Source: a virus
Strand: one strand, 5' to 3'
Length of the DNA stretch: 20,646 bases
IMG/VR virus record: IMGVR_UViG_3300023110_000207
Span: 1-20,646 of that record
Shown: in pieces, positions 1 to 19,979 of the stretch
How positions within the stretch are numbered: position 1 is the first letter of the stretch
How the letters are laid out: each line of letters starts with the position of its first letter
Notes under the pieces: generated by a model
Database searches by the model: none
The model's input: only the letters and a program-made list of their open reading frames with translations
What the model was told of the DNA's origin: nothing
Made by a program: the position numbers and the translations under genes

Positions 1-341
1 CTAAGTGGTGATTTAACTGGTGATGTGCTTGGTAATGTAGTTGGTGATGTAACTGGAAGTATTAGCGGTTCCAGTGCTACACTGTTGACACTAAGTGGTG
101 ATTTAACTGGTGATGTGATTGGTAATGTAGTTGGTGATGTAACTGGAAGTATTAGCGGTTCCAGTGCTACACTGTTGACACTAAGTGGTGATTTAACTGG
201 TGATGTGCTTGGTAATGTAGTTGGTGATGTAACTGGTAGTGTAAGTGGATCAACCGCAACATTTGATACTTTAAGTGGTGATTTAACTGGTGATGTGCTT
301 GGTAATGTAGTTGGTGATGTAACTGGAAGTATTAGCGGTTC
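1..341 (+). repeat. 90-bp tandem repeat array encoding Gly-Asp tetrads
   Basis: Units start at 1, 91, 181 and 271. Units 1 and 2 differ at one base (C28 versus A118). Unit 3 matches until about 230 and then diverges into a GSVSGSTATFDT version. Unit 4 matches for 71 bp, to base 341. Each unit encodes 30 residues made of G-(D/N/S)-hydrophobic-x tetrads, so a 12-nt sub-period lies within the 90-bp period. The array probably extends upstream of the window. Near-identity at synonymous positions indicates recent expansion or homogenisation. Confidence 0.95.
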
Positions 342-3300
342 TATAGGCAAATTTAATTTAGTTGGAATAGGTTCAAATTCACCATCTAATACATTAGATG
401 TTAAAGGAAACACATTATTAGATGGAAATTTAACTGTTACTGGCCAGTCTTTATTTTTAAGTGCAAGTTACATTAACATAACAAGTAGTGTTGTTACCAT
501 AGGTGATAATATTCTCACGCTTAATGCTTACAGTCCATTTAAACGATACGCTGGAATTGAAATGCATGACAGTGGTTCTTCTGCTTTAGCACAGTTTTTA
601 TGGGATAGCGAGAACAATTATTTCTTTGTAAGTGGATCAACTGCAACAAATAGTCAAAATTTATTAATTCTAGGTCCAGATAATAATTCATCTTTAACAG
701 CTGGTGCTTTGCCTGTTTCATATAATGGTAATGAACTATCAAGTAGTATAGTTTATCAAAAAGGTGATTTTGTTGGTATAGGTGTTGTAAGTCCATCTTA
801 TAAATTAGATATAAACGATGGTTCAATATTTTTAGATTCTGATTGGCCACTTTACTTAGGTAGTACAAATGCTTTTATTGAGGGAAACAGTTCTGGCACT
901 ATAGTTAGAATTAATGGTTCAGCTGGTTTTAAAGTTACTGACGGTGGAGATACAAGATTTTTAATAGATACCAACGGTAATGTTGGTATAGGAGGTTCAC
1001 CGACAACAGTAACTCACGGTCCTCATTTAGATATTGTAGGAAATAGAGGAACTTTAACTGTAGGTACAGGTTACTTTGAAGACAATGGGACTACAAATTT
1101 CTTAAACGGAGCTAGACCTTTAGCATTTGGATACGCAGGTAGTGAAAAAATGCGTATTAACTTCACCGGCAATGTTGGTATAGGCACTTCAAGTCCGAAT
1201 GCTAAATTAGAAGTAAGTGGTTCAAGTAATTCAAGTTTATTAAATATTAAAAGTTCAGTTGGTGATGAGTTACTATCTGTGAGTGGTTCTGGTGAAATAA
1301 AATTAAGTCAATATGGATTAGGAACATTTACTGGAACACCAACTTATAAATTATCCGTCGATGTAAACGGAAATATTATAGAAACATCAATTGGTGCTGG
1401 TCAAGTTGATGGATCTGGAATAACAAATTATATTTCTAAGTGGACTGACAGTAATACACTCGCGACTTCAAGCCTCTACGATGATGGTACTAATGTTGGT
1501 ATAGGTACTACAAGTCCAGAGGCTAAACTTTATGTTTTAGGCGCTGATGCCTCTGTCGCTCCTGATACAACAGCAGATATAGCTGCATTTGAATTCAGTG
1601 CGGGAGCAGGAGTTGATGGTGTTTCATTGTTATTCCCTGATGACAAAGCTGGTCAATTAGTTTTCGGAACACCTTCAGACAATTTAGCGGGAAGAATTGT
1701 TTACACTGGGCCTTCAGTTGCAACAGCAGCTAATCAAGATTCCATGCGTTTTTATACAAGTGGATCTCAACAAGCTATAATTAATAAAGACGGTAATGTT
1801 GGTATAGGTATTACAAGTCCTTCTGCTAAGTTAGATATAGTATCCCCAAATGATTCCAATGCTATTTTTGTTCGTAACAGTAGCAACCTAAGTCGTTTGA
1901 CTCACAATATATTCATAGATTCATCAAATTATGGAAAAGTTGCAATATACGATAATGCGCAAAATACTAAGATATTCTTAAATACAAACGGAAACTCTTA
2001 TTTCAATGGAGGTAATGTTGGTATAGGTACTACAAGTCCATCTCACAACCTTCATGTAGATGGATTAACAAAATTAGGAGAAGCTGGCAAAACGGAAGGT
2101 GGAGCAGTTATAAATTACGCATCTTTTGGAGAAGTCAAAAGCGGAGCACAAACCCTATTGGGTAATGCTGTGGTCCCCGGTACCACTGACAATACCATTC
2201 AACATTCAAAGTCTGATGCAGGCAATTTTATGCGAATGGTTTACAGTAAAGGCATATCATTTCATACCAATATAACATCTAGTTTAAATACAGATGTAAA
2301 TATCGATACCAACGAAAGAATGCGAATCGACACTTCTGGTAATGTTGGTATAGGTACTGCAAGTCCTTCTGAAAAATTACATGTATCTGGTTATTTATTA
2401 GTGGATTCAGGGTTGCATTTTAGAGCACTAGCAAGTAGTGGCTTACAATGTATTGGTTTTAACAGAAACACTGGGAACGGTAATATTTATGACTCAAATT
2501 ATTACGCATACCAAATTAATAATAGTGCCAACATCTTTGAACTCCAACAATATAGTGGATCGGGAACATTTTTAACTCACCCATTTAGAGCAACTACAAC
2601 TGAGTTAGTTGTAAATGATAGCGGTACCAATTATGATTTCAGAGTAGAGGGTGATAATGATGTTAATCTATTGGTATGTGATGCTAGCACGGATAGAGTT
2701 GGTATAGGTAATACAAGTCCCGATTATAAATTAGATGTTGCAGGAGATATAAGAATATCTAACAGCAACATATTTAGATTATTTACCTCTGGAAATGTTG
2801 AAAGAGGTTCTATTCAAGCTACCGATACGGACCATTTAATTATAGCAACAAGTGGTGGCGAACATATTCGATTTAAAGATGGTGGCGTTAGCGGCACTAC
2901 GAATATGTCTATTTTGGGAAATGGCCAAATTGTATTTAATAATTATGGTTCCGGTAGTTTCACAGGAACAGCTACTCAAAAGTTAGCTGTAGATTCTTCC
3001 GGTAATGTAATCGAAACAGAACAAGAAAAAAGTTTAAGTACAACGGGTGGAACAATTGATACTGGATTTACAGCTGATCAATTTACAATGTTGGAAGTTA
3101 TTGGGTATGTTAATCCAAATAGTGCAGGTTCCGTAAACTATAAAGATCCTGTTCATATATTTGTATATAACGGTGTTGGATGGAATGGTTCGGTGGTAAC
3201 TAATTATATTTATAGTTCACAGATGGCACCTTTAGCAAGAGAAATATATTCTTCTGGAAGTAGTGCATCCGGTAATGAAATAGAGGCAGTATTTTTGACG

Positions 3301-3426
3301 GGATCAACTGAATCCGATGATTGTCCAAATAGTTCAGCAAGTAGTTATCAAGTGAGATTGAAAATATCAAATTATAATCAGGCAGGAACTTCCGGATTTA
3401 CAGTGAAGGTAATTAAAAAGTATTAA
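1..3426 (+). CDS. Tail-fibre-like NVGIGT-repeat protein 1 (5'-truncated by window)
   Basis: The reading frame is open from base 1, and the GTG at 25 is only an internal codon, so the true start lies upstream. The visible part is 1141 residues. It opens with a Gly-Asp/Asn tetrad region (GDLT, GDVL, GNVV, GDVT, GSIS) encoded by a 90-bp tandem array. It continues with about nine VGIGxxSP units, each followed by a K-L-x-V strand. These are separated by beta-rich spacers that include the 354-bp shared module (406-759), two FTGTxTxKLxVD linkers near 1330 and 2955, and a FRVEG...LLVCDAS module (2602-2709). About 130 residues without repeats form the C-terminus, after GNVIET. Such repeats are known from marine phage fibre and structural proteins and are inferred to form trimeric beta fibres. 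No SDxRLK motif of an S74 intramolecular chaperone is present. It is the first of four paralogues in one operon. The exact fibre type (proximal, distal or whisker) cannot be told. Confidence 0.85.
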   Translation, partial: LSGDLTGDVLGNVVGDVTGSISGSSATLLTLSGDLTGDVIGNVVGDVTGSISGSSATLLTLSGDLTGDVLGNVVGDVTGSVSGSTATFDTLSGDLTGDVLGNVVGDVTGSISGSIGKFNLVGIGSNSPSNTLDVKGNTLLDGNLTVTGQSLFLSASYINITSSVVTIGDNILTLNAYSPFKRYAGIEMHDSGSSALAQFLWDSENNYFFVSGSTATNSQNLLILGPDNNSSLTAGALPVSYNGNELSSSIVYQKGDFVGIGVVSPSYKLDINDGSIFLDSDWPLYLGSTNAFIEGNSSGTIVRINGSAGFKVTDGGDTRFLIDTNGNVGIGGSPTTVTHGPHLDIVGNRGTLTVGTGYFEDNGTTNFLNGARPLAFGYAGSEKMRINFTGNVGIGTSSPNAKLEVSGSSNSSLLNIKSSVGDELLSVSGSGEIKLSQYGLGTFTGTPTYKLSVDVNGNIIETSIGAGQVDGSGITNYISKWTDSNTLATSSLYDDGTNVGIGTTSPEAKLYVLGADASVAPDTTADIAAFEFSAGAGVDGVSLLFPDDKAGQLVFGTPSDNLAGRIVYTGPSVATAANQDSMRFYTSGSQQAIINKDGNVGIGITSPSAKLDIVSPNDSNAIFVRNSSNLSRLTHNIFIDSSNYGKVAIYDNAQNTKIFLNTNGNSYFNGGNVGIGTTSPSHNLHVDGLTKLGEAGKTEGGAVINYASFGEVKSGAQTLLGNAVVPGTTDNTIQHSKSDAGNFMRMVYSKGISFHTNITSSLNTDVNIDTNERMRIDTSGNVGIGTASPSEKLHVSGYLLVDSGLHFRALASSGLQCIGFNRNTGNGNIYDSNYYAYQINNSANIFELQQYSGSGTFLTHPFRATTTELVVNDSGTNYDFRVEGDNDVNLLVCDASTDRVGIGNTSPDYKLDVAGDIRISNSNIFRLFTSGNVERGSIQATDTDHLIIATSGGEHIRFKDGGVSGTTNMSILGNGQIVFNNYGSGSFTGTATQKLAVDSSGNVIETEQEKSLSTTGGTIDTGFTADQFTMLEVIGYVNPNSAGSVNYKDPVHIFVYNGVGWNGSVVTNYIYSSQMAPLAREIYSSGSSASGNEIEAVFLTGSTESDDCPNSSASSYQVRLKISNYNQAGTSGFTVKVIKKY
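406..759 (+). repeat. 354-bp fibre module, copy 1
   Basis: This 118-codon block begins GNTLLDGNLTVTG and ends SSSIVYQ. It recurs at the same length and in frame in genes 2 (5562-5915) and 3 (9920-10273). The DNA is nearly identical, with long runs unchanged even at third positions (for example 490-600 against the other copies). The encoded pattern, with TIGDNILTLN, AGIEMHDSG, FLWDSE and NLLILGP, resembles the DNxxELN...SGIxIERG...WDES domain of T4-like cyanophage fibre proteins; that comparison is from memory. It is probably a folded spacer domain of the fibre shaft. Confidence 0.93.
2602..2709 (+). repeat. FRVEG-LLVCDAS module, copy 1
   Basis: This 36-codon block leads into a VGIG unit and matches 15081-15188 in gene 4. 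Shared residues are VVN, a Phe-Arg-Val-Glu-Gly core, LLVCDAS and D-(R/K)-VGIG. Protein identity is clear but the DNA has diverged at many third positions. This is therefore an older duplication than the 354-bp module. Confidence 0.8.
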
Positions 3427-3431
3427 AAAAT

Positions 3432-6400
3432 ATGTCCAAAACTTATTATAAAATTTATAAAAATGAAAATGGTAATGTTGGTATAGGTACAACAGAACCA
3501 TCCAGTAGACTCCATGTAGCAGAGGATAATGGGGTTAGTATTTTAACTCTTCATAGAGAAGGATCAAATCCTTCAACTGATACAGTTATTGGTCAAATTA
3601 AGTTTGATCAAGATTGGAATTCAAATCAAGAAAATTGGGGTTATATACAATTATCTACAAACACAGTTTCTTTTCGTACAGACTTAGATTTCTATGTTAA
3701 ATCGACAAGTGGTAATTTGATGCAAGGTATGACTATACATGGAACCACTAATAATGGTCCTTATGTTGGTATAGGTACTACAAGTCCAGTAGAAATATTA
3801 GATGTAGCTGGAAAACAAAGAATCACTCAAAATATTGTTTCTAACACTACGTATCCCATGCTAGCTTTTGGAAGCAACCGAAGTATAAATGATTACGGTG
3901 GATTAAATAAAGACTATTGGAGAATAAACGTAGTTACTCCCGGTGCTAACACCACAGGAGAAGCGTCTGCCCATGCGTTTGGGGACCTCGTATTCTCAGG
4001 CGTGGCTGGTAGCAATACAACTTATCTTGATCGTTTTGTAATTCGTGCCGGTGGTAATGTTGGTATAGGTACAACTAACCCAACTTCTCTATTACATATT
4101 GACACAGGAGCTAATAGTGCAGCTAATTTTAGGTTAGGAGCGAATAGAACGGTAGCCAACGCTGCAGTAGGTCAAATAATTGGTGACTGGAATGGTACTG
4201 TTGTATCTAAAATAGCATTTAAAACCGGGGATGACACTATTAACAAAGATAACGGTGAAATCGCTTTTGAAGTTGCAGCTGCAGGAACGACTACAGAAGC
4301 GATGCGTATTAATTCTACTGGTAATGTTGGTATAGGTACAGATAGTCCCGGTTCTAAGTTACATGTGCAGTTAACTAATCAATCTGCTTATTCAGCCTCG
4401 TCATCTTCTACGGATCATTTACAAATTCGTACACAACAAAACACTGGAACGTCTGGAGCGTATTCATCTCTTAGAATGTTAGCTAGCTCTAACAATGGAA
4501 CTAATAATGCAGTTGGTATAATTAATCTAGTTTCGCCTATAAATGGTAATAATGATAGCGCATTTACTTTTCAATTAAGAGACTCTTCATCAGTTTATGG
4601 AGAAAAAGTTAGAATACAAGCTGACGGTAATGTTGGTATAGGTACAACTAATCCTACATTAGGCAAGTTGCAAGTTGCTGGTAGAGGGTATTTTGGTCCT
4701 ATTGGGACGGGAGATGCTACAACTAAAGCTTTAATGGATACATATAGTGTCCTCAAACTAAAGCCGCACGATAGCAACTCTACTAATATGACTTTCGCAC
4801 AAGTTAATAATGGTAGTGGTATTGGTATTCAAGTAACAAATAGTACGCAAACAGCAGATTGGGATATAGCATTAAATCCTTATGGTGGTAATGTTGGTAT
4901 AGGTACTACAAGTCCAACTGCTCAACTTGAGATTAGTAGTTCATCAGCATCAAGTTTATTAAATGTTAAAGGAGCTGGTGGTGATTCGTTATTATTTGTC
5001 AGTGGATCTGGTAAAGTTGGTATAGGTACTCCAAGTCCTGATTCTCTATTGCATCTATCTAGCGCAAGTACATCAGTATTAACAATTCAAAATACTACTA
5101 ATGCAGGAAACGCCTCGTTAAACTTTAGAGATGAGGGTGGGACAGATCAGTTTAAAGTATTTTATGATTTACCTAATAATAGAGCTTGGAATTACGTAAA
5201 TGGTAATGGTTTAACAATATACTCTACTCAAACAAACGCTGAAATAGTTAGATTTGGATTAGGCGGCGCAAACACTTATATAGATTCTTTGTTTAATGGT
5301 AATGTAGGCATAGGAATTACTTCGAGTGCGAAATTAGATGTAAATGGCATAAGTAGATTTAGAGATGAGCTGCAAATTTATAGCTCTACTACTGATATTG
5401 GAGCAATTGGTAATTATAATGGCGCCTTAAATATTCAAGGGACATCTACACGGGATGTCAGTTTGGGCAGCGACTCATATCCTCAAGCTGTATTTATCGA
5501 AGGAACGAATGGTCATGTTGGTATAGGTAATACAAGTCCCACTGCTAAATTACATGTAGATGGAAACACATTATTAGATGGAGATTTAACTGTTACTGGT
5601 CAGACTATAATGTTGAGTGCTAGTTATGTGAATATTACAAGTAGTGTTGTTACCATAGGTGATAATATTCTCACGCTTAACGCTTACAGTCCATTTAAAC
5701 GGTATGCGGGACTTGAAATGCATGACAGCGGTTCTTCTGCTTTAGCACAGTTTTTATGGGATAGTGAGAACAATTACTTTTTTATAAGTGGATCAACTGC
5801 AACAAATAGTCAAAATTTATTAATTCTGGGTCCAGATGGTAAAGCTGATTTAACAGCTGGTGCTTTGCCTGTTTCATACAATGGTAATGAAGTTTCAAGT
5901 AGTATAGTTTATCAAGCTGGAGGTAACGTTGGTATAGGTATAGCTAATCCAAGTACAACTTTAGATGTAGCTGGTACTTTTAAAGTCTCTGATTGGGGTC
6001 ATTTTTCTAATAGTGGAGGGAATGAAATTGTATTGGGTAGTTCAGGCGCTAATTATGGTTTCATTATGAATCCGAGTGCTGGGGTATGGTCTTTAGGTTA
6101 CGGTAGTGATCGAGATACTTTAGGCGCATCTGTTTTGTCTTGGAGTAGTTCTAATCTTGTCACTATTAATAATGCATATAATTTATTTTTAGACGGTGGA
6201 AACATTACATTAGAAAATAGCGCAGGAGATAATTCAGCTACTATTAGTAATGATGGGGCTGCGGGTAGTAGTAAAATTAACGTAGCAGACTCATTATATG
6301 TTATAGAGAGCGGTAATGTTGGTATAGGTACTACAAGTCCAACTGCTCAACTTGAGATTAGTAGTTCATCTGCATCAAGTTTATTAAATATTAAGGGACC

Positions 6401-9400
6401 CGGTGGAGATGGTATGCTTTATGTTAGTGGTTCTGTCTTTGGTCGTGTTGGTATAAATACTACAAGTCCATCTTATAATTTACATGTAACCAACCCCGGC
6501 CCCTATGAGTCGTCGATTGCTATAACAGGAAATGGTGCAAATCAAGACACTTGGGTTATAAAAAGTGAAGATGATTCGGATGGTTCTGCGATTCTTAATT
6601 TTAGAGATGACGATTCATTCACAACAGCATTAACTCTTAAACAAGATGGTAATGTTGGTATAGGTACTAACAGTCCTACTGCAAACTTAGAATTAGCGGG
6701 TTTCAACGCCACTACAGGACCTGTTCTTAGACTTTCGAATTATTCTCCTTCAATTGGTGCTGGTGGTACACATGGAACTATAGAATTTTACTCTGGAGAT
6801 ACCAGTGCCCCTGGCGCTCAGGTTGTTAGCAGTATTAAATCAATTCATGTTGCAACTTCTTCCAATTTTGGAGAATTAGCTTTTTCCACTAATTCTAATA
6901 ATGAGGCAGTCAGGATTGATTTGAATGGTAATGTTGGTATAGGTACTACAAGTCCGGGTTCTAAACTTACAATAAGTGATGGTGATATTAAACTTCAAGG
7001 AAGTCGTTCTGGAGACGCAGATATTCAGTCAATTATATGGCATAATACTAACTCTACAGGATTTGATGTTGCTAAAATTGTAGGTAAAACAGGAACTAAT
7101 ATTTATGAGGGTATCATAAGATTTGAAACCAAAGATTCTGGAGGGACGATGGCTGAAAGAATGCGTATTGATTCTTCTGGCAATGTTAAGATAGGACTTA
7201 ATGGCAGCGGTGGTGGAGCTATTATTAGACCTGCTGGTCAAACAAGTGTATATGCATTAGAAGTTGATCGATCAGGAACAGGTAGTAGTGTTGATATATG
7301 GGATAATAATGATGATTCAGTTATTATTGGCGCTACTAGTAGTGAGCAAATCCTTACAGTAAAGACTGGTGGTAATGTTGGTATAGGTACTACAAGTCCA
7401 ACTGCTCAACTTGAGATTAGTAGTTCATCTGCATCAAGTTTATTAAATATTAAAGGATCGAGCGGCACTGGACTATTATTTGTCAGTGGATCTGGTAAAG
7501 TTGGTATAGGTACTACAGACCCTGCCGTGCAGTTGAATGTTTATGGTACTGATGCAGAATTTAGATTACAAAGAGCTGGTGGTAGTTATACAGGAATTAT
7601 GTATCAAGGATTCCCTAGCGGATTGCCATTTATTGCAGGAGATAATGAATTAGCTTTTGGAGGAGCTGGTACATGGGTGGAACACATGAGAATAACCTCT
7701 GGAGGTAATGTTGGTATAGGCACAACAAGTCCAACTGCTCAACTTGAGATTAGTAGTTCATCAGCATCAAGTTTATTAAATGTTAAAGGAGCTGGTGGCA
7801 CTGGACTATTATTTGTCAGTGGATCTGGTAATGTTGGTATAGGTACTGCAAGTCCCGATGCTACGCTTGATGTTTTAAGGGGAACAGCTACGGGAGGCAC
7901 AGCTCAGTTTAGAGGAACTACCTACACTACTCACATTAATTACAGCACAAATGAACGCACCTATATTCGAGCGGGAAAAGCTGGGGCGTATGTTACTATT
8001 AATGATGCTCACAACGGTGATGTTCATCTAGCGAATGGTGGCGGTAATGTTGGTATAGGTACTGGAAGTCCTTCTCAAAAATTACATGTAGTAGGCACAG
8101 GTTATTTTTCTTCTAATCTTTTATCTGTTGGATTAGCAGCTCAAACAAATTCAAGTTACATAAGAGAATCGAGTGATCAAATTAGATATTTAAGCCGTAT
8201 ACAAGGAAGAAATATTAATCACAATTCTCAATTTATAGCAGGAACTACAAGTGGATATTCTGTATATAATAACTCTGGAGGTTCAGCGGTTGGAATTAGT
8301 GCTGTTTATTATACTAATGATACTGCAATTAGCACATCTGCCGTGCCTAATTCAACTGGATATGTATTAAAAATAAGTTATACTAGCGGCGTTGGATCAA
8401 CAATTCCGGGTTATGGAGGTTTTTATCTTGCAACGAGTAATAGCGAAGTAATTAATGGCGATAAGCAATATAAACAAAAAAATAGAATAGTTTATAGAAT
8501 TTGGGCTAAGATTCCTAGCGGCAGGAATATAGCTTTTGCGAGTAATGCTTATGGATCTAATGGATTTGTTACTTGGCTAACAACAACTGCCGGAAATGAC
8601 GATTGGTATGAGTATATAGCTGTTCAACAAATTGGTTTTGGAGGATCATTTAGTTCAACTGCTTTTTTTAATATAAGTGGTGGATCAGATACTAGCTTTG
8701 ATTGGTATGTAGCGGAATGCTCTGTTATAGATGTTGATTGTCCAGCTGACATTTTATATTCGCCGGGGTTATCAATTGGTTATGGTGGAGGCACTAACTA
8801 CAATAGCGTTCAAGCTGGATGGGGTGGTTTGGGAGTTTTGAATAAAGCTATAATTGGTGGTAGGGTTGGTATAGGTACTACAAGTCCTAATGTTAAATTA
8901 GAAATTCACGGTAGTGATATCACAACTTCGGCTGATACTACAGCAGAACCTGTTTTAAGATTGGTCAGAGATGTTGTCGATCCTAACGCTACATTAAGAA
9001 AAGATAGTGCTGTAGATTTCATGTTGTCTAGGCAGCAAGCTGTAGCTAATAATTTACCTTATACTAGGTTAGATATTAGATTAGCTGGTATTACAGACTC
9101 TTCAACACCTTCTGTGGATGTAATGAGTCTGCTTTATGATGGTAATGTTGGTATAGGCACATCATCGCCGTCATCAAATTTACAAATTGATAATAACAAT
9201 CGAGGCAATTATTTTGGAGGTAAAACAGTTAGTATAAATAATACAGCATTCAACGATATTTTAAGCATAGAATTGCCAGATCATCGATCAGCATATATTA
9301 AGATATTTATGAATGGAGATTGGGCAAGTCATAGTTCAATAGCATATGTTGGTGAGTTTATGATTCAAAATGGAGGTAATAGTTATAATGAACCAGGCAC

Positions 9401-9566
9401 AATTATATCTGAATTTGATAATACCTTCAATGGAAATGTAATTACTCAAATTTTAGATTCAACCAATGACACATTTAAAATACAAGCAAAATTAAGTACA
9501 ACTGGTAATCTATCAAATATTAATCTTACATATCACATAATGGGATCAGTAACATCAATTACATAA
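3432..9566 (+). CDS. Tail-fibre-like NVGIGT-repeat protein 2 (2044 aa)
   Basis: The ATG lies five bases after the TAA of gene 1, with no clear Shine-Dalgarno, so initiation is probably coupled to termination upstream. A 15-residue N-terminus leads directly into the first NVGIGTTEP unit. About 22 such units follow, some degenerate (VGINTTSP, VKIGLNGS), between beta-rich spacers. The spacers include four copies of the LEISSSSASSLLN module and one 354-bp module (5562-5915). Residues about 1555-1810 form an uninterrupted repeat-free insert that looks like a jelly-roll, galactose-binding or CBM-like domain. The last ~105 residues form a separate C-terminal beta domain ending GSVTSIT, which resembles the end of gene 3. 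No S74 chaperone motif is visible. The role is inferred to be a structural, receptor-facing fibre. It could instead be a baseplate or capsid decoration fibre. Confidence 0.88.
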   Translation: MSKTYYKIYKNENGNVGIGTTEPSSRLHVAEDNGVSILTLHREGSNPSTDTVIGQIKFDQDWNSNQENWGYIQLSTNTVSFRTDLDFYVKSTSGNLMQGMTIHGTTNNGPYVGIGTTSPVEILDVAGKQRITQNIVSNTTYPMLAFGSNRSINDYGGLNKDYWRINVVTPGANTTGEASAHAFGDLVFSGVAGSNTTYLDRFVIRAGGNVGIGTTNPTSLLHIDTGANSAANFRLGANRTVANAAVGQIIGDWNGTVVSKIAFKTGDDTINKDNGEIAFEVAAAGTTTEAMRINSTGNVGIGTDSPGSKLHVQLTNQSAYSASSSSTDHLQIRTQQNTGTSGAYSSLRMLASSNNGTNNAVGIINLVSPINGNNDSAFTFQLRDSSSVYGEKVRIQADGNVGIGTTNPTLGKLQVAGRGYFGPIGTGDATTKALMDTYSVLKLKPHDSNSTNMTFAQVNNGSGIGIQVTNSTQTADWDIALNPYGGNVGIGTTSPTAQLEISSSSASSLLNVKGAGGDSLLFVSGSGKVGIGTPSPDSLLHLSSASTSVLTIQNTTNAGNASLNFRDEGGTDQFKVFYDLPNNRAWNYVNGNGLTIYSTQTNAEIVRFGLGGANTYIDSLFNGNVGIGITSSAKLDVNGISRFRDELQIYSSTTDIGAIGNYNGALNIQGTSTRDVSLGSDSYPQAVFIEGTNGHVGIGNTSPTAKLHVDGNTLLDGDLTVTGQTIMLSASYVNITSSVVTIGDNILTLNAYSPFKRYAGLEMHDSGSSALAQFLWDSENNYFFISGSTATNSQNLLILGPDGKADLTAGALPVSYNGNEVSSSIVYQAGGNVGIGIANPSTTLDVAGTFKVSDWGHFSNSGGNEIVLGSSGANYGFIMNPSAGVWSLGYGSDRDTLGASVLSWSSSNLVTINNAYNLFLDGGNITLENSAGDNSATISNDGAAGSSKINVADSLYVIESGNVGIGTTSPTAQLEISSSSASSLLNIKGPGGDGMLYVSGSVFGRVGINTTSPSYNLHVTNPGPYESSIAITGNGANQDTWVIKSEDDSDGSAILNFRDDDSFTTALTLKQDGNVGIGTNSPTANLELAGFNATTGPVLRLSNYSPSIGAGGTHGTIEFYSGDTSAPGAQVVSSIKSIHVATSSNFGELAFSTNSNNEAVRIDLNGNVGIGTTSPGSKLTISDGDIKLQGSRSGDADIQSIIWHNTNSTGFDVAKIVGKTGTNIYEGIIRFETKDSGGTMAERMRIDSSGNVKIGLNGSGGGAIIRPAGQTSVYALEVDRSGTGSSVDIWDNNDDSVIIGATSSEQILTVKTGGNVGIGTTSPTAQLEISSSSASSLLNIKGSSGTGLLFVSGSGKVGIGTTDPAVQLNVYGTDAEFRLQRAGGSYTGIMYQGFPSGLPFIAGDNELAFGGAGTWVEHMRITSGGNVGIGTTSPTAQLEISSSSASSLLNVKGAGGTGLLFVSGSGNVGIGTASPDATLDVLRGTATGGTAQFRGTTYTTHINYSTNERTYIRAGKAGAYVTINDAHNGDVHLANGGGNVGIGTGSPSQKLHVVGTGYFSSNLLSVGLAAQTNSSYIRESSDQIRYLSRIQGRNINHNSQFIAGTTSGYSVYNNSGGSAVGISAVYYTNDTAISTSAVPNSTGYVLKISYTSGVGSTIPGYGGFYLATSNSEVINGDKQYKQKNRIVYRIWAKIPSGRNIAFASNAYGSNGFVTWLTTTAGNDDWYEYIAVQQIGFGGSFSSTAFFNISGGSDTSFDWYVAECSVIDVDCPADILYSPGLSIGYGGGTNYNSVQAGWGGLGVLNKAIIGGRVGIGTTSPNVKLEIHGSDITTSADTTAEPVLRLVRDVVDPNATLRKDSAVDFMLSRQQAVANNLPYTRLDIRLAGITDSSTPSVDVMSLLYDGNVGIGTSSPSSNLQIDNNNRGNYFGGKTVSINNTAFNDILSIELPDHRSAYIKIFMNGDWASHSSIAYVGEFMIQNGGNSYNEPGTIISEFDNTFNGNVITQILDSTNDTFKIQAKLSTTGNLSNINLTYHIMGSVTSIT
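4887..5030 (+). repeat. LEISSSSASSLLN module, copy A
   Basis: This 48-codon block runs from GNVGIGTTSPTAQLEI through SLLNVKGAGG and LLFVSGSGK into the next VGIGT. The DNA is nearly identical to copies starting at 6312, 7371 and 7704 in the same gene, and more distantly to the copy starting at 14076 in gene 4. Because each copy both starts and ends with the NVGIGT motif, it behaves as an exchangeable cassette. Confidence 0.9.
5562..5915 (+). repeat. 354-bp fibre module, copy 2
   Basis: This is the same 118-codon block as at 406-759 and 9920-10273. It differs locally near 5603-5635, where TIMLSASYVNIT replaces SLFLSASYINIT. It shares the GPDGKADLTAG ending with copy 3, whereas copy 1 has GPDNNSSLTAG. 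This patchwork of shared and differing segments suggests gene conversion among copies. Confidence 0.93.
6312..6461 (+). repeat. LEISSSSASSLLN module, copy B
   Basis: The first ~80 bases are nearly identical to copy A. The second half then diverges (KGPGGDGMLYVSGSVFGRVGINT), and the block is two codons longer than the other copies. Confidence 0.85.
7371..7514 (+). repeat. LEISSSSASSLLN module, copy C
   Basis: This 48-codon copy has SLLNIKGSSGTGLLFVSG in its middle. Its 3' half, from ACTGGACTATTATTTGTC on, is identical to copy D apart from the last Lys/Asn codon. Confidence 0.9.
7704..7847 (+). repeat. LEISSSSASSLLN module, copy D (A/C mosaic)
   Basis: The 5' half matches copy A, including AATGTTAAAGGAGCTGGTGG. 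The 3' half matches copy C (the GGCACTGGACTATTATTTGTC segment). The copy is therefore a recombinant of the two types, only about 190 bp downstream of copy C. Confidence 0.88.
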
Positions 9567-9571
9567 AAAAT

Positions 9572-12500
9572 ATGGCAAATCAATTAACAGCATCATTTAA
9601 AATATTAGACAAAAATGTTGGCATAGGCACAACTTCACCTGTTCAAAAACTTCATGTTGTAAATTCTTCTACTGGAGAAATTGCTAGGCTTCAAACTGTA
9701 GGTGGTTCTACAGGAGGTTCATGGTTAGGATTTCATAATTCAACTCTTGACTTAGGTTATTTTGGTTGGGGAAGTACTAATAATAACAATTTATTTATAG
9801 TTAATTATCAAAATGCTCCAGTGTTATTTTATACAAATGGAACAGAAAAAATGCGTATTGCTGCAAATGGGGATGTTGGTATAGGTATTGCAACTCCTAC
9901 TGCTAAATTACATGTAGATGGAAACACATTATTAAACGGAGATTTAACTGTTACTGGTCAGTCTTTATTTTTAAGTGCTAGTTATATAAATATTACAAGT
10001 AGTGTTGTTACCATAGGTGATAATATTCTTACACTTAATGCTTACAGTCCATTTAAACGATACGCTGGAATTGAAATGCATGACAGCGGTTCTTCTGCTT
10101 TAGCACAATTTTTATGGGATAGTGAGAAGAATTATTTCTTTGTAAGTGGATCAACTGCAACAAATAGTCAAAATTTATTAATTCTGGGCCCAGATGGTAA
10201 AGCTGATTTAACAGCTGGTGCTTTGCCTGTTTCATATAATGGTAATGAAGTTTCAAGTAGTATAGTTTATCAAGATGGAGATAAGATTGGTATAGGTACA
10301 GCAAGTCCTCTGAACAAGTTGCACGTTTTTAGTTCGATTGCAAACAATCTGCGAATGGAGCGAGATGCTTCTAACGATTGGCAATTTTTACTTACCGGTG
10401 GATCGCTTCAGCTTCAAGACGCTACTAACAGCGCAACTCGCTTGACCATCGACTCATCCGGTAATGTTGGTATAGGTACAACAAATCCTACATCCCCACT
10501 ACATGTAAAAGCTGGTAATTCTGCTATAGCTTTAAATGAATATTCCAATGGTGCGACAATTTGGCTTGATGGAGCAGATGGTGATTTTACAGGTGGAGAT
10601 TATTTTCAAATTCTAGCTAATAGTAGTTCTTATTTAGGATTAGGCGGTTATGGCGGAGGCGCTACACCTTTAAATGTAACAAACACAGGTAAAGTTGGTA
10701 TAGGTACTACAAGTCCAGCTTATAGATTAGATAATAACGATTTATCTATTCGAACAACTTCTGCTACAGCTGAAAAAGATTTTTACATTAATTTTGCTAA
10801 CGGTGCAGCTAATCAAAAAGTTGACATATCTTTTCCTTATTACAATGGAAGTGTGTTCTGGGGGTATTTAGAAGTAACAATTACTGCGGGGTATAGTAAT
10901 CAGTTATCTACTGGTAAAATAACTAAAGTATTTTCAGTTGGGTTAAATGCCCCTGGAGGGAGTCCAGGAAGTTATACTTCACAAATTTATGATGATACAA
11001 ATTACTATACTTCTGTTTATGGATCAATTTCTAATCAATGGGGTATAGAAGGTATTAACTTTAATTCAACAACTGGTCAATACTACATTACAATAGCCCA
11101 CAGAGTATCTACGGGGAATGCTATACGGGTAAAAGTCAAAGGGTTCGGCATTGAGACGGGGTACTTTGCTGATACTCAATTCGGTGGTTTATCGGCTGGC
11201 AGCGTTTACACTACAGATACAACAGTTTTTGATGCTCCTGTTATAACAGTTCCGAAGTTGAATGTAGAAACCACCGGAACTTTTGGAGATGATTTGTTAA
11301 TTGGTCCTACAGCCACTCCTGATATTGTATTACAGTCTTCAGGTACCGGCGTTAACACAAATGGCAAACTTTATTGGAAAGATTCTGGAGGCACAGTAAG
11401 GGCTTCTGCTGGATACGAAACTGGTAGTACAGAGTTTTTTATTGATAATACTTTTAGTGGAGGAGTTTATTTAAAGTCAAATGGCACGATAGGCTTAACA
11501 GTTAATTCTGCTGCTAATGTAGGTATAGGTACTACAAGTCCAAATTACTTATTAGATGTAGAAAAAGATGGTGCTGGATTACGAGTGTATAATACTACTT
11601 CTGGTAGTCAAACTGATCTTCTACTAACTCAAGAAGGTACAACAGGTCTTTCCCGTATTTTTTTCGGAGATACAGCTAATCATGATATTGGAAGTATTAT
11701 TTATCGTCATAATGGCGACTCAATGGCATTTGAGACAAGTGGTTCAGAAGCTGTACGAATTGATTCATCCGGTAATGTTGGTATAGGTACTACAATTCCC
11801 AATTATGAATTACATGTAGGAGGATCTATCTACTCTTCTGTGAGGCTAGGTGTTCAAGCTCTTAACACTAGTTATATAGCGACCCTTGGAGGAGCTACTG
11901 ATGCAAAACTAGTACTAGCTGGAGCTACTAATCCTTACATTCGTTTTCAAGAAGGGACTACTGATAAAGCTTACATACAATGGGATTCTGGTGAAGGAGC
12001 TATATTATTTAGAAATCAAGAGGGTGATAATTTTTGTTTTAACCCAAATGATACAGCAGGAGCTGTATGGATAAAACTTCAAGGTTCAGATCACGATAAT
12101 TGGGGAGGGATTTATGCTCAAGAAAACGGAGGAACTCATCAAATAGGATTTTTAGACGGCGACAATCACTGGGCTTCACGACATACCGATAATACGTCTT
12201 GGGAATGGTTAGTTAATAATAGCGTTAAGATGACGCTTAATAGTTCTGGTAGTGTTGGTATAGGAACAACTTCACCGACATCAACGCTTAACATTTACGA
12301 TTCTACCGCTGGCGCTTCCGTGCTAAAAGTTGATGGAACAAGCGGTACTATTTTCGAAGTCACTGACGACTTAAGTAATTCATTAATGTCGGTAAACACA
12401 ATCTCAGGCTTACCTGCGTTTGAAGTTTTCGCTGATTATCACATAGTAGCAGGAAGATATAACCAAAACGATTTTTATTTAGACACGAATGGTAATTTAG

Positions 12501-13150
12501 GGCTAGGTACTGCAAGTCCATCCTATAAACTTGAAATCGATGGGACAACAGACTTTGGTAACACAACGACATATAACGACGGTGCTGCTGGATTAATTAG
12601 TTGGAATTCTGGTACTAAATTTAAAGTAAAAGGTCAATCTGGTCATGCATTAAGTTTAGGAGCTAATGGAACAGAAGATTATGTATGGATAGCTACCGAT
12701 GGCAATGTTGGTATCGGTACATCAAGTCCAGCAGCCACGCTTGATGTAACACAAGGAACTGCAAACACTAATAACAAATTAATGAAAGTCGCTGATGATG
12801 TTCTCAGTGTTTATAAAGTAACCGGCCAAACAAATCACACGGTAACTTTAACTTGCGGTTCTTACTTCCAAGCGGAAGTAGTCATCACCGCAAATCAAAC
12901 AAACAGCGGTACATATAACAATTTATATATTAGAGGTATTTGGTCTAATAACCATACATCGCATCATTGGGATGAAATAGAAAACATTGGCAGCTTAACG
13001 GGAAGCAGTTTCTCGATTACGGTAGGTCAAAACGATGTAACTAATTCTGGAAAGCTAACGATCACGCACACATATTCTAGTGGGAGTTTTTCTCAAATGG
13101 TAGTTAGAATAACAGATCTTTATGGAGTACATTCATATTCAATAACTTAA
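9572..13150 (+). CDS. Tail-fibre-like NVGIGT-repeat protein 3 (1192 aa)
   Basis: The ATG follows the TAA of gene 2 by five bases, in the same 11-base context as the gene 1/2 junction. The N-terminus is 14 residues long before the first NVGIGTTSP. About ten repeat units follow, with the third 354-bp module at residues ~117-234. A repeat-free beta segment at residues ~390-570 (ENDs near GDDLLIGP) may be an inserted folded domain. The last ~110 residues (from about VADDVLSVYK) form a C-terminal domain with an NQTNSGTYNN...IWSNNHTSHHW pattern ending HSYSIT; it resembles the end of gene 2. Segments 10320-10460 and 12240-12570 look richer in C and G than their surroundings, consistent with cassette exchange. 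No catalytic or S74 motif was seen. A fibre role is inferred from the repeat family and gene context. Confidence 0.87.
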   Translation: MANQLTASFKILDKNVGIGTTSPVQKLHVVNSSTGEIARLQTVGGSTGGSWLGFHNSTLDLGYFGWGSTNNNNLFIVNYQNAPVLFYTNGTEKMRIAANGDVGIGIATPTAKLHVDGNTLLNGDLTVTGQSLFLSASYINITSSVVTIGDNILTLNAYSPFKRYAGIEMHDSGSSALAQFLWDSEKNYFFVSGSTATNSQNLLILGPDGKADLTAGALPVSYNGNEVSSSIVYQDGDKIGIGTASPLNKLHVFSSIANNLRMERDASNDWQFLLTGGSLQLQDATNSATRLTIDSSGNVGIGTTNPTSPLHVKAGNSAIALNEYSNGATIWLDGADGDFTGGDYFQILANSSSYLGLGGYGGGATPLNVTNTGKVGIGTTSPAYRLDNNDLSIRTTSATAEKDFYINFANGAANQKVDISFPYYNGSVFWGYLEVTITAGYSNQLSTGKITKVFSVGLNAPGGSPGSYTSQIYDDTNYYTSVYGSISNQWGIEGINFNSTTGQYYITIAHRVSTGNAIRVKVKGFGIETGYFADTQFGGLSAGSVYTTDTTVFDAPVITVPKLNVETTGTFGDDLLIGPTATPDIVLQSSGTGVNTNGKLYWKDSGGTVRASAGYETGSTEFFIDNTFSGGVYLKSNGTIGLTVNSAANVGIGTTSPNYLLDVEKDGAGLRVYNTTSGSQTDLLLTQEGTTGLSRIFFGDTANHDIGSIIYRHNGDSMAFETSGSEAVRIDSSGNVGIGTTIPNYELHVGGSIYSSVRLGVQALNTSYIATLGGATDAKLVLAGATNPYIRFQEGTTDKAYIQWDSGEGAILFRNQEGDNFCFNPNDTAGAVWIKLQGSDHDNWGGIYAQENGGTHQIGFLDGDNHWASRHTDNTSWEWLVNNSVKMTLNSSGSVGIGTTSPTSTLNIYDSTAGASVLKVDGTSGTIFEVTDDLSNSLMSVNTISGLPAFEVFADYHIVAGRYNQNDFYLDTNGNLGLGTASPSYKLEIDGTTDFGNTTTYNDGAAGLISWNSGTKFKVKGQSGHALSLGANGTEDYVWIATDGNVGIGTSSPAATLDVTQGTANTNNKLMKVADDVLSVYKVTGQTNHTVTLTCGSYFQAEVVITANQTNSGTYNNLYIRGIWSNNHTSHHWDEIENIGSLTGSSFSITVGQNDVTNSGKLTITHTYSSGSFSQMVVRITDLYGVHSYSIT
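9920..10273 (+). repeat. 354-bp fibre module, copy 3
   Basis: Its 5' part encodes SLFLSASYINIT as in copy 1, and its 3' part encodes GPDGKADLTAG as in copy 2. It is thus intermediate between the other two. Long stretches are unchanged at synonymous sites relative to 406-759. Confidence 0.93.
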
Positions 13151-13154
13151 AATC

Positions 13155-16100
13155 ATGGGAATAGCAACGCAAACATCAGATGGATTAAAATTTAACACAA
13201 CGTACATGTACGTTAAGAATAACTCGGGTACCACTTTAGCCGCTATTTCCAGCGGTGGCAATCTTGGTATAGGTACTGCAAGTCCATCTTATAAATTAGA
13301 TGTGAATGGAGATGTTCGTGTAAATGGTTCTACTTCAGCAATTGATGCAAATTACGGAGTTTTTCTGGGAACATATTCTGGTGGTACTAATATTAGTCCG
13401 GGTGAACTTGTGTTAGCGACTCAAGCTAAAACCGGTTGGGGACCGGGAGACGAGTTAGGTAGAATTAGGTTTTGGCTAGGGGACGCCTCTGGAGTTGGAC
13501 GTAGAGATGTTGCAAAAATTATAGCTGTTAACGAAGATGGCAACGGATCTACCACAACAACTGCTAGCGGTGCTTTAGCTTTTTATACTTCCAACTATAA
13601 TAGTAGCGTTGCGGAAAGAGTAAGAATCGCTCAAGATGGTAAAGTTGGTTTAGGCGCTAGTAGTCCCACTGCCAGATTTCAAATAAATAATGATTATACA
13701 ATAGACGCTAATTATGGTTCAGCCGACCTTTACGTCAAAGAAACTGCATCTCAATCAAGCTATGATCCTGATGTTCAAAACACAACTGATCTTCAAGCAT
13801 TAATTACTGTTTCTAGTAATAATACAGCAGGTCCAGATAAACCCGGTTTAGTATTATACAATGATGATAATACTGCAGGTGGTTTTTCACCGATGCTTCT
13901 TTTCTCTAAAAGAGAAAGTGGGTCTTCTCCGTATAAAGCTACAATGGCTGGAATTTATGCCCGATCCCCTTTAGGAACAGGGGATAACAATAGTTGGATT
14001 GATGGTGAGTTAATATTTGCAACTGCTGGTGCTTCGACTTCTGGTATAACACAACGGATGGTCATTAATAAAGAGGGGCTAGTTGGTATAGGTACTACAA
14101 GTCCTTCTGCTCAACTTGAAATTAGCAGTTCATCTGCATTAAGTTTATTAAATATTGAGGGATCTGGAGGAAATAACATATTATATGTAAGTGGATCTGG
14201 TCGTGTTGGTATAGGAACCACACAACTATATGAAAACTTAACAGTAGCTGGTCAATCAATTGGTATTCGAGGAGATGTACCTCAATTAAAATTAATTGAT
14301 ACAAATAGTAACTCAGATTATAATCTTGTAAATAATAATGGAAACTTTGGCATTTATGATTCTACGAATGCTGCATATAGATTATATACACTAGCAAATG
14401 GTAATGTAGGTATAGGTACTACAAGTCCCAGTTATAAACTGGACGTTAACGGGGATGCTTCTGCTACAACCCTTTTATCAGACTACAGAAGACTGAGGTC
14501 TTATGGTAATTTTAGCACCTCAACCAATAACACCGCAGGTTGGTATCCATTGGCTCACTGGGGAACATCGTCTGGAAACAGAGGTGGGTTTATAATTTAC
14601 GTTTCTTACACTGGTGGAAGCTGGGGTCCTACAACATATGTAATCAAAGTTTTTAAAGACTGGGGTAGTACAGGCACAATATTGGTAGAAAAGTATGGCG
14701 GCAATAATTACATAACTGATGTAAGAATAATCGCAAATTCCAGTTCTGTTTATTATCTCGAACTATACCTTACAGCTCAATCAGTAGGGCATAGTTTCTC
14801 TGCTTATTATGAAGGGTATGGCTATGACGAAAGTGGTACTAGCACTATGACTTTCGTTAATACAAGTTTAGCTCTTTCTACAAATACCGGAACTGTCGCA
14901 GCAAGCATGGGCCTAGGTATGGGGCAAGGATTAGCTACTGTTAATGCTTTAGTGCGAGATAACTTGTTTTTAGGCTCTAGAATGTATCATTACGGTGATA
15001 ATGATACATATTTAGGTTTCAACACTAATGAAGCATTTCTTGTTGCCGGGAGCATTAACGCATTGCATTTATATTCGACAGAGGCAGTAGTAAACGAAAA
15101 CGGAGCGAATTTTAATTTCAGAGTCGAAGGCGCCACTGATCAAAACTTGTTAGTTTGTGATGCTAGTGCAGATAAAGTTGGTATAGGCACTGCAAGTCCA
15201 TCTTATCCTCTTACAGTTGCTGGCGCAGACTCTATCGGTATTGATGATTATATATTGCATAATGGAGATGGTAATACTAAATTTGGTTTTTCTGGAGCAG
15301 ATACATTTAAAATTAGGACAGCTGGGGTAGATGCTTTATTTGTAAATTCATCACAAAATGTTGGTATAGGTACTGCAAGTCCAACTTCTGCTAAGCTTGA
15401 AATTCATCAGAATTCTGGTAATAATTTTAAAATTTTTGGGCAAAGCGCATTAGAAGTATTTGGAATTGGTGCGACTGGTGTAACGACAATAACTGGTCAA
15501 ACAGGTAGCACTGTATTCGGAATAACGAATAGTGGTGCAGGGGATTTTATGAATGTCGGTGGTGGATCTCTATATGTTCAAAAAAGTGGTAATGTTGGTA
15601 TAGGTACCGTAAGTCCGACTGAAAAATTAGAAGTATCTGGGTCTATTTTAAGTAATTCATTTGGTGTGTCAGGATCTGCTGTTACTCCTTCTTTTATAGG
15701 AGTTCCCCAAGGTGGTAGTTACAACAGTAATTCCACTGAAACTGGTTACTTAAAAATTAATTTACCAATAGAACCAGTTAGCACCACTGATGTAACCGTA
15801 AGTTTTAAAGTTAGAGTTTCAGAAGGAAGCATCAATAAAATTTCAATATACAATGTTACAGGAACATTATCTGGCGCAACAATATGGCAAGCTTCTTCAG
15901 CATATTTTGAAACTCCATGGAAAACTACTACTGGTGCTACTTCAGGTAGTTTTATAGATTTAGGAAGAGATGGAACTAGTACTACAGGTAAATCTTCTGT
16001 TTTAATAAACTCTGGACGAAATGAGTTGTCTTCGTGGTTTTCTCCAATTGTTCAAGTATATGATGTAAGTATTGGAGGAGTAAACACCTATAATGTAAGT

Positions 16101-16538
16101 GATTGGCTTGAAGGATGGAATGTTTCTTTCACAACATCAAAATTGGGTTATACAAACACTTCATATGCGATGGGAAGAATTAGTGGTACAAATCCAACTC
16201 CTCTAAAATATAATCAATCGAAAAGTGGTACGGTTATATTATCAATTCAAGGTAATTGGGGTGGTTTTCAAAGAATATCTCTAGCTAGTGGAACTACTAT
16301 ACAATCAATTTCTTATACTAATATACCAGTTGGATATTCTGTTACAATTGCTATACTGCTTTTATACGGAGGTACTGCGACTGTTACATGGACTAATGTT
16401 AAATGGTCCGGCGGCGTAACACCAACATTAACCGGTGTAAATGGAAAAGCAGACTTATTTACAATAACTTCATATGATGGTGGTAGTAATTGGATTGGAT
16501 CAGTAGTAGCTCAAAATCTAGATAGTACTAATTTATAA
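13155..16538 (+). CDS. Tail-fibre-like NVGIGT-repeat protein 4 (1127 aa)
   Basis: The gene starts four bases after the TAA of gene 3. A ~37-residue N-terminus precedes NLGIGTASP. About eight repeat units are present, fewer per residue than in gene 2. A repeat-free segment at residues ~440-600, rich in Tyr, Trp and Gly, probably forms a separate beta domain. The VVNENG...FRVEG...LLVCDAS module lies at 15081-15188. The final ~300 residues (after ~830) contain no repeat and end with a KADLFTITSYDGGSNWIGSV stretch, a type of ending seen in phage fibre tips (from memory). As the last giant protein before the LamG-like gene and the chaperone-like gene, it is a plausible distal or receptor-binding fibre. 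That placement is an inference. Confidence 0.86.
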   Translation: MGIATQTSDGLKFNTTYMYVKNNSGTTLAAISSGGNLGIGTASPSYKLDVNGDVRVNGSTSAIDANYGVFLGTYSGGTNISPGELVLATQAKTGWGPGDELGRIRFWLGDASGVGRRDVAKIIAVNEDGNGSTTTTASGALAFYTSNYNSSVAERVRIAQDGKVGLGASSPTARFQINNDYTIDANYGSADLYVKETASQSSYDPDVQNTTDLQALITVSSNNTAGPDKPGLVLYNDDNTAGGFSPMLLFSKRESGSSPYKATMAGIYARSPLGTGDNNSWIDGELIFATAGASTSGITQRMVINKEGLVGIGTTSPSAQLEISSSSALSLLNIEGSGGNNILYVSGSGRVGIGTTQLYENLTVAGQSIGIRGDVPQLKLIDTNSNSDYNLVNNNGNFGIYDSTNAAYRLYTLANGNVGIGTTSPSYKLDVNGDASATTLLSDYRRLRSYGNFSTSTNNTAGWYPLAHWGTSSGNRGGFIIYVSYTGGSWGPTTYVIKVFKDWGSTGTILVEKYGGNNYITDVRIIANSSSVYYLELYLTAQSVGHSFSAYYEGYGYDESGTSTMTFVNTSLALSTNTGTVAASMGLGMGQGLATVNALVRDNLFLGSRMYHYGDNDTYLGFNTNEAFLVAGSINALHLYSTEAVVNENGANFNFRVEGATDQNLLVCDASADKVGIGTASPSYPLTVAGADSIGIDDYILHNGDGNTKFGFSGADTFKIRTAGVDALFVNSSQNVGIGTASPTSAKLEIHQNSGNNFKIFGQSALEVFGIGATGVTTITGQTGSTVFGITNSGAGDFMNVGGGSLYVQKSGNVGIGTVSPTEKLEVSGSILSNSFGVSGSAVTPSFIGVPQGGSYNSNSTETGYLKINLPIEPVSTTDVTVSFKVRVSEGSINKISIYNVTGTLSGATIWQASSAYFETPWKTTTGATSGSFIDLGRDGTSTTGKSSVLINSGRNELSSWFSPIVQVYDVSIGGVNTYNVSDWLEGWNVSFTTSKLGYTNTSYAMGRISGTNPTPLKYNQSKSGTVILSIQGNWGGFQRISLASGTTIQSISYTNIPVGYSVTIAILLLYGGTATVTWTNVKWSGGVTPTLTGVNGKADLFTITSYDGGSNWIGSVVAQNLDSTNL
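14076..14219 (+). repeat. LEISSSSASSLLN module, copy E (in gene 4)
   Basis: This block has the same 48-codon layout as the gene 2 copies (TTSPSAQLEISSSSALSLLN...LYVSGSGRVGIGT). It has more substitutions, so it is an older or transferred copy. It shows that modules move between genes as well as within them. Confidence 0.82.
15081..15188 (+). repeat. FRVEG-LLVCDAS module, copy 2
   Basis: This 36-codon counterpart of 2602-2709 has the same length and the same anchor residues. It leads into KVGIGTASP. Divergence at synonymous sites is high compared with the 354-bp module. Confidence 0.8.
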
Positions 16539-17324: not shown

Positions 17325-17879
17325 ATGAAAAAATATTATTATATGCAAATAGAAAGTAATGAAGGAACGATAACAAATGCGTCAATAATATCAGGACCAG
17401 TTTATCTTCCAAAAAATTATAAAAATGTTTCTAACTTTAGTGACATTTCAGATGATTCACTATTAATAAATTTAGAATGGATGGGGGATTCCGACAAAGC
17501 ATTTTGGGAAGCGATTTTTCCAGAAACTACACCATCAACTTCATCAACTCAAAAATTAATAGAAAATACATCTGTTAACATTTCCAATTCTACTGTCGAT
17601 GTCACCTTTTCTATAGTAGAAATGTCATCCGATGAAATAAATGAAAAAATAGAAAATTATAAAACTGAATGGAGAGAACACCGAAATAGATTATTGTTTT
17701 TAACAGATTTTACTCAGTTGCCAGATGTGCCATTAACTGATCAAGTTAAATCAAACTTCGCAGTTTATAGAGAAAATTTAAGAAATTTGTTTGATGTAGC
17801 AACTGTTGAAGATATTGTTTGGCCTGAACCACCGTCAGGCACAAACATTGACTTCGACCAATATTATATACCAAATTAA
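17325..17879 (+). CDS. Tail assembly chaperone-like protein (Phage_tail_APC type C-terminus)
   Basis: The gene starts two bases after the stop of the LamG-like gene. Residues ~115-155 show the pattern W-R-x-x-R-N-x-L-L, then LTDFTQLPDVPLT, then K-x-x-F-x-x-YR-x-x-LR. This is the hallmark of the C-terminal domain in phage tail or fibre assembly chaperones (Phage_tail_APC, DUF4376-like), where SDWTQ-PD-PL is usual. The N-terminal ~100 residues are not recognised and contain a low-complexity TTPSTSST stretch at ~68-75. Small proteins of this kind commonly follow fibre genes and help their folding or attachment. That fits its place as the last gene of the operon. Its TAA shares the bases TTAA with the stop of the converging 51-aa gene. 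Confidence 0.82.
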   Translation: MKKYYYMQIESNEGTITNASIISGPVYLPKNYKNVSNFSDISDDSLLINLEWMGDSDKAFWEAIFPETTPSTSSTQKLIENTSVNISNSTVDVTFSIVEMSSDEINEKIENYKTEWREHRNRLLFLTDFTQLPDVPLTDQVKSNFAVYRENLRNLFDVATVEDIVWPEPPSGTNIDFDQYYIPN

Positions 17880-19787: not shown

Positions 19788-19979
19788 TTATTTGTACTGT
19801 GGATACATATCTCTCAATATAACATATTGTGGTCTGTCTTTAAATAAGATAATATCATCAATTAAGTTCTTAAAGTTTCTACCTTTTATTTTTTGTCGAA
19901 TTCGAAGTAAATGCTCTTTCTCTTGTTTAGTTAACCTTGGCAATTTATATTTTTCATCAGAACTGTCCATAGTATTCAT
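19788..19979 (-). CDS. Hypothetical small protein (63 aa)
   Basis: This is a basic protein with a KLPRLTKQEKEHLLRIRQKIKGR stretch that looks helical. No family is recognised. The frame overlaps the 3' end of the GcvH-like gene by 23 nt from the first ATG, or 14 nt if translation starts at Met4 (19970). Neither start has a convincing ribosome site. It fills the space between two supported genes on the same strand, which argues for it being real. Confidence 0.6.
   Translation of the reverse strand: MNTMDSSDEKYKLPRLTKQEKEHLLRIRQKIKGRNFKNLIDDIILFKDRPQYVILRDMYPQYK

Follow-up and report, generated by a model that had tools for sequence, protein, structure and literature searches.

A 27-nucleotide seam with frozen codons joins the cassettes of phage tail-fibre genes and marks sites of cassette exchange in related arrays

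It is not settled how phages can rebuild the long fibres used in host recognition and keep them intact; the question is addressed here through an array of repeated motifs in a virus contig of 20,646 nt (the window). Positions 1-16538 are taken up by four consecutive tail-fibre genes (A-D), all matching the PHROG tail-fibre families phrog_9942 and phrog_18345. The genes, the positions of the V codon of each repeated motif, and the gene that follows the fibre block are:

1..3426, plus strand: tail-fibre gene A, 5' end off the contig (ORF, motifs; PHROG tail fiber phrog_9942, E=5e-28)
Gene A seams (n=9), V codon: 361, 772, 982, 1174, 1495, 1798, 2017, 2344, 2698
3432..9566, plus strand: tail-fibre gene B, 2044 aa (ORF, motifs; phrog_9942, E=5.5e-67)
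Gene B seams (n=20), first ten, V codon: 3477, 3765, 4059, 4326, 4632, 4893, 5016, 5304, 5517, 5928
Gene B seams, last ten, V codon: 6318, 6654, 6933, 7377, 7500, 7710, 7833, 8049, 8865, 9147
9572..13150, plus strand: tail-fibre gene C (ORF, motifs, PHROG)
Gene C seams (n=10), V codon: 9617, 9875, 10286, 10466, 10694, 11519, 11777, 12254, 12497, 12707
13155..16538, plus strand: tail-fibre gene D (ORF, motifs, PHROG)
Gene D seams (n=8), V codon: 13263, 13644, 14082, 14205, 14406, 15177, 15360, 15594
17325..17879, plus strand: tail-fibre assembly chaperone-like gene (Pfam PF16778, E=1.6e-10; phrog_4912)

Genes A-D had no Pfam match, the C-terminal S74 chaperone-protease domain (Peptidase_S74) included, and genes B and D, the two scanned against NCBIfam, had none there. 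The best PDB sequence match of gene B (phmmer) was a distant one, to the Bdellovibrio MAT fibre Bd2133 (PDB 8ond, E=5e-7), and an AlphaFold2 monomer of one window cassette was all-beta at low confidence (pLDDT 59).

A regular-expression search of the four genes ([VILM]G[ILV]G) returned 49 sites, the approximate number of motifs originally predicted; 47 are true copies of VGIGTTSPxxKLxV, with exact VGIGT in 34, and the other two (LGLGG at 10634 and MGLGM at 14907) are spurious. An additional degenerate copy, VGIN, lies near 6447. At the DNA level, GGTATAGGTAC was matched with at most one mismatch 40 times on the plus strand and never on the minus strand, against 0.33 matches in shuffles. The conserved DNA around each motif, here termed the seam, runs from -6 to +20 relative to the start of the V codon:

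4887..4913, plus strand: consensus 27-nt seam GGTAATGTTGGTATAGGTACTACAAGT (motif list; extent from the homogenised block)

The codons of the motifs do not follow the codon usage of the spacers, the comparison on which the original prediction of recombination seams depended. Ile is encoded in the motifs by ATA 44 times, ATC once and ATT never (n=45), against ATA/ATC/ATT counts of 120/20/168 in the spacers (Fisher p=2e-15), and the ATA excess persists once copies with related spacers are dropped (binomial p about 4e-12). To cover all codons, copies with related neighbouring spacers were removed, leaving a non-redundant set of 34, and the probability of codon identity between two copies was compared with draws from spacer codon usage. 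Excess synonymous identity was confined to codons -2 to +6 around V, that is, 27 nt, with observed/expected values of 0.82/0.37 for V, 0.78/0.35 for the first Gly, 0.94/0.45 for Ile and 0.68/0.25 for Ser+6. No excess was found at the near-invariant Pro+7 (0.27/0.35), at Leu+11 (0.43/0.38) or at the frequent Ile at -6 (0.31/0.44). The predicted similarity of the motif DNA, with near-fixed codons, is thus real and sharper than had been stated, extending over 27 nt only, and its three named codon exceptions were all recovered: GGC ATA GGC in the seam from 9611, ATC at 12713, and GTA GGC ATA GGA at 5304.

Since the Pro+7 and Leu+11 codons sit at background diversity, protein constraint fails to explain the seam. 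These two residues form the key internal control, because a cause lying in protein conservation, in the young age of the repeats or in preferred codons at conserved positions would be expected to show there as well. Recent expansion by duplication, in which the copies would be alike because they are young, does describe a few cassettes, which are true duplicates (361/5517/9875 and 4893/7377/7710/14082). For the bulk of the copies it is rejected, since the codon excess survives in the 34 copies left after those with related neighbours are removed and the flanking spacers are unrelated; as an account of the seam it is extremely improbable.

The description of the spacers as unrelated holds for most of them, the exceptions being a 137-codon cassette found in three genes and a recurring 41-codon cassette. 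Among the 42 internal cassettes of the window, 12 have a full-length homologue, and nine have one in another, unrelated phage (loci are denoted by L numbers):

361..771, plus strand: 137-codon cassette, gene A copy (88-92% aa identity to the copies at 5517 and 9875; both flanks unrelated)
5517..5927, plus strand: 137-codon cassette, gene B copy
9875..10285, plus strand: 137-codon cassette, gene C copy
4893..5015, plus strand: 41-codon cassette (repeats at 7377, 7710 and 14082; also in L166, L250, L251, L254, L196 and L282)
7377..7499, plus strand: 41-codon cassette, second copy
7710..7832, plus strand: 41-codon cassette, third copy
14082..14204, plus strand: 41-codon cassette, gene D copy
4632..4892, plus strand: cassette common to the unrelated phage L195/L140 (both 87 codons, 96% aa, body 89% nt)
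4059..4325, plus strand: cassette present in L195 at another place, also in L225, L235 and L173 (89 codons in both, 92% aa with L195)
12254..12496, plus strand: cassette that has different neighbours in L173, L168, L219, L248, L235 and others
13644..14081, plus strand: cassette homologous over its full length to one in L223 (68% aa), neighbours unrelated
14406..15176, plus strand: cassette homologous over its full length to one in L225 (56% aa), neighbours unrelated

The 137-codon cassette common to genes A, B and C lies between different neighbours in each, and no copy was found in annotated phages; the 41-codon cassette has longer relatives at 1174 and 6318. The flanks of the cassette at 4632..4892 are only 36% and 40% identical in nucleotides to those in L195/L140, i.e. 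unrelated. Searches with the 260-aa gene, the methyltransferase and the gene D C-terminus recovered no relative of the window's phage, only the same fragment (L009/L240); the recombinants described below belong to other phages.

Other arrays were sought in IMG/VR with codon-degenerate patterns and were found in many viruses. The first degenerate pattern biased Ser+6 towards AGY, and the pooled virus profile was restricted to loci obtained from codon-degenerate patterns, those picked by the exact seam being excluded as biased. The same block emerged in the 67 virus loci whose codons were not fixed in selection (478 copies), with a weak signal at Pro+7 and none at Leu+11. Arrays in cellular genomes carry it at about half the strength, so the 27-nt block is not specific to phages. 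Which codons are frozen differs among lineages: ATT fills 34 of 35 motifs in L083, GTC GGT ATC GGG nearly all motifs in L030, and TCA/TCT encodes Ser+6 in L139, while the AT-rich L023 and L089 have seams with GTC, ATC, GGG and ACG, all rare in their own spacers. The seam of the cultured cyanophage S-CRES2 reads GGC AAC GTT GGT ATC GGT ACG, and pelagiphages use still other codon sets. The same block with different frozen codons means that no universal codon rule explains the seam. The earlier argument that protein constraint cannot account for ATA stands, but the special status that it gave to ATA does not: a universal ATA is rejected, other phages having frozen ATT or ATC.

These alleles bear on the proposal that the capping loop has to be encoded by certain codons, whether to set the speed or accuracy of translation or the shape of the mRNA, with DNA likeness as a by-product. 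The frozen zone does fall within the protein motif, and viral and cellular arrays share a weak tendency towards AAC GTC GGC ATC GGG ACG over background, which points to an additional contribution from codon-level selection or from old common ancestry. However, the frozen codons differ among phages and include codons rare for their genome, the equally conserved Pro+7 and Leu+11 remain free in codon, and the seam RNA of five alleles folds no better than shuffles. Codon-level selection as the main cause is accordingly improbable, and it does not predict the match in seam codons between cassette-sharing phages described below.

Whether cassettes move at the seams was assessed in related arrays. 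With one fibre N-terminus as anchor, phages whose N-termini are near-identical differ in the order of the cassettes that they share, so the spacer order questioned in the original prediction is not fixed. In 163 independent pairs of cassettes, the two members are homologous (at least 70% aa identity) and their neighbours to either side are unrelated; 121 of the pairs are equal in length, and at the seam the nucleotide identity within pairs flips between the background and the homologous level. Wherever a cassette homology had an unrelated flank, it ended within 6 residues of a seam in 61% of cases on the left and 73% on the right, against 11% for uniform breakpoints; DNA-level alignments in fibre genes ended at motifs in 37% of cases, against 10% at random positions. 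Close pairs yielded 14 insertion or replacement events, and of their 28 breakpoints no more than 10 lay at seams, compared with 12.9% by chance (binomial p=0.002).

Near-identical phages also differ by seam-to-seam insertion or deletion of cassettes. Compared with L199, L135 holds one more cassette, of 237 nt, and the flanks are 97-98% identical between the two; at its single seam L199 resembles the left parent on the left side and the right parent on the right, the switch falling inside 24 identical nt. Similarly, L166 is without 990 nt found in L254 (the same contig as L209), and its seam is of the left type through GTT and of the right type from ATA, placing the switch within 6 nt. Comparison of viruses thus shows two crossovers located inside seams, and exchange at seams in related arrays, through which viruses lose and gain whole cassettes and transfer them to one another. 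Motif-bounded swaps had been anticipated, and are seen among window genes A, B and C, between phages, and as the indels just described.

A frozen 27-nt block, alleles particular to a lineage and seam-bounded cassette movement might also be read as rare non-homologous joins followed by selection for intact beta-helix units, the seams being structural boundaries and their DNA likeness leftover ancestry. Some breakpoints do lie elsewhere than seams, and the boundaries coincide with the beta-helix-capping loop described for Bdellovibrio MAT fibres (PMC10769870). Leftover ancestry, though, would have preserved the Pro+7 and Leu+11 codons too; the spacers have diverged beyond recognition where the third positions of the seams have not; and in two recombinants the parent switch lies inside identical seam DNA. 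Since cassette exchange, moreover, follows seam codons, joining of this kind is improbable as the main process.

This link to seam codons was measured across 110 phage clusters as the excess seam-codon match over codon-usage expectation, with seams adjoining shared cassettes excluded; if exchange runs through seam DNA, cassette-sharing phages should share seam codons. The excess was 0.177 in 147 cassette-sharing pairs and 0.022 in non-sharing pairs; restricting the set to the 64 clusters whose selection had not used the exact seam gave 0.117 against -0.022. None of 2000 permutations gave a difference as large in either set, and sharing and non-sharing pairs did not differ significantly at the control codons Pro+7/Leu+11. 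The comparison thus links cassette sharing, at the level of sequence, to seam codons. Matching seams could permit exchange, or the seam could be spread by it; in either direction, recombination at the seam is required.

Another candidate is site-specific recombination, as in shufflons or by invertases, with the 27 bp as its target; the seam has a length and sharp edges like those of a recombinase site. Against it, two seams tested contained no inverted repeat, all 38 seam matches lie on one strand with none in reverse, seam alleles vary between phages, and no recombinase gene was found by Pfam or PHROG in the window, itself a genome fragment. None is annotated in HTVC168P, nor in the parts of S-CRES2 covered, which lie outside 50-62 kb. 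Such a system is very unlikely here. A diversity-generating retroelement would have a reverse transcriptase and a template/variable repeat pair; no reverse transcriptase was found among the nine window proteins scanned from this contig fragment.

The best reading, and one held with high confidence, is homologous recombination, probably annealase-driven, at seams that encode a beta-helix capping loop. The four genes encode long tail fibres built of cassettes of roughly 40-270 residues, with a conserved VGIGTxxPxxxL loop at each junction. The DNA for GNVGIGTTS (27 nt), near-identical at all junctions of one phage, would act as the recombination seam, pairing by homologous recombination with seams of the same gene, of sister genes or of co-infecting phages. 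Minimum identities for recombination are 23-27 bp for Red beta and 31-34 bp for RecA (PMC3945230), and a seam of 27-29 nt fits the Red beta-type pairing length more closely than that of RecA. We infer that the enzyme is most likely a phage single-strand-annealing protein, for which some 23-27 bp of identity is enough; an annealing protein, Sak (PF06378), is encoded by S-CRES2. Crossing over within the seam would join whole cassettes in frame and damage neither. Repeated exchange would homogenise the seam within a lineage, giving each lineage its own frozen synonymous codons, and exchange would then occur mainly between phages with matching seams.

The capping role is suggested by the MAT fibres, in which V-G-G/N-pi-X-X-P-X-X-X-L loops cap the edges of trimeric beta-helix units (PMC10769870). 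With that consensus and Bd2133 as the best PDB match of gene B, the seam probably encodes a cap between units, so that a crossover there would leave both units whole. The cassettes are probably structural units too, and selection that keeps domains whole would lead to these boundaries as well, which weighs against the seam reading. From homology, they may form receptor-binding surfaces; exchange at the seams might benefit receptor binding or change host range, and the seams might be an adaptation selected for shuffling.

The closest precedents are the T-even gp38 adhesins and the MAT fibres. In gp38, recombination between conserved glycine-rich motifs is reported to swap specificity (Tetart, Desplats & Krisch 1998, as cited in PMC6027323 and PMC12529663), and these motifs form polyglycine II helices (PMC6851490). 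As in gp38, a presumed phage host-recognition protein here has conserved glycine-containing motifs set between variable segments, and in related arrays these segments are swapped by recombination at the motifs. Unlike the small gp38 adhesin, the present fibres have beta-rich units of 40-270 residues, dozens per phage, and lineage-specific seam alleles; genes A-D do not match the gp38 sequence family (no Pfam match, and PHROG matches to other tail-fibre families). With the MAT fibres the loop consensus is shared, VGIGTTSPxxKL in the 47 window copies corresponding to the consensus in passages of PMC10769870. MAT fibres are, however, bacterial surface fibres, and those passages do not describe DNA-level homogenisation or recombination at the loop. 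In annealing-protein mosaicism of phages, short identity (23-27 bp for Red beta) similarly suffices for exchange, but it is scattered rather than repeated as an in-frame seam in one gene (PMC3945230). Shufflon or inversion systems differ in that the present seams all lie on one strand, with no inverted repeats in two seams and no recombinase in the window fragment. The families phrog_9942 and phrog_18345 do not describe the seam, and a search of the open-access literature for the word VGIGT found no phage-fibre paper.

The results support the seam interpretation originally proposed. More tentatively, and with considerable doubt, seams could be a maintained DNA feature, favoured because a common allele on its flanks would help a spacer to recombine and spread; phages, and possibly fibre-bearing bacteria, would then form synonymous-codon compatibility groups, within each of which cassettes circulate as a pool across unrelated viruses. 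Synonymous codons serve as a readable record of exchange partners, so that sequence alone suffices to test gene flow among uncultured viruses. Because the protein loop and the recombination seam coincide, any crossover would give a working join, and the cassette joints would let phages readily remodel their long surface fibres. If seam-dependent exchange is true, it would constitute a concrete, general mechanism for fibre diversification in marine and freshwater phages.

Gene A, the first of the four tail-fibre genes, begins in the window with 90-nt tandem repeats (GDVTGSISGSSATLLTLSGDLTGDVLGNVV; positions 1-341), which are distinct from the seam repeat, the near-identical DNA block found at each joint between fibre cassettes. 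Three genes lie on the minus strand near the 3' end of the window:

18081-19181 (-), class I methyltransferase, matching phrog_24523 and phrog_37107
19957-20313 (-), glycine cleavage H protein (PF01597, E = 1.7e-38)
20324-20644 (-), putative metallophosphoesterase fragment (GHSHY; resemblance judged by eye)

The glycine cleavage H protein gene is probably an auxiliary metabolic gene of this phage contig.

Among the other loci carrying seam arrays, L206 and L212 belong to phages that are identical except for a 111-nt copy-number difference, which is located outside the seams. The consensus seam AAC GTC GGC ATC GGG ACG is common to L292 (Doudnabacteria), L384 and L120, comprising cellular genomes and one phage; arrays of viruses and of cellular organisms alike show a weak bias towards it, contrary to their own codon usage. 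In the cultured cyanophage S-CRES2 (L284; array codons 338-1213), the seam allele, i.e., the lineage-specific set of frozen synonymous codons, switches partway along the array, as it likewise does in L180, as if two blocks of different origins had been joined.
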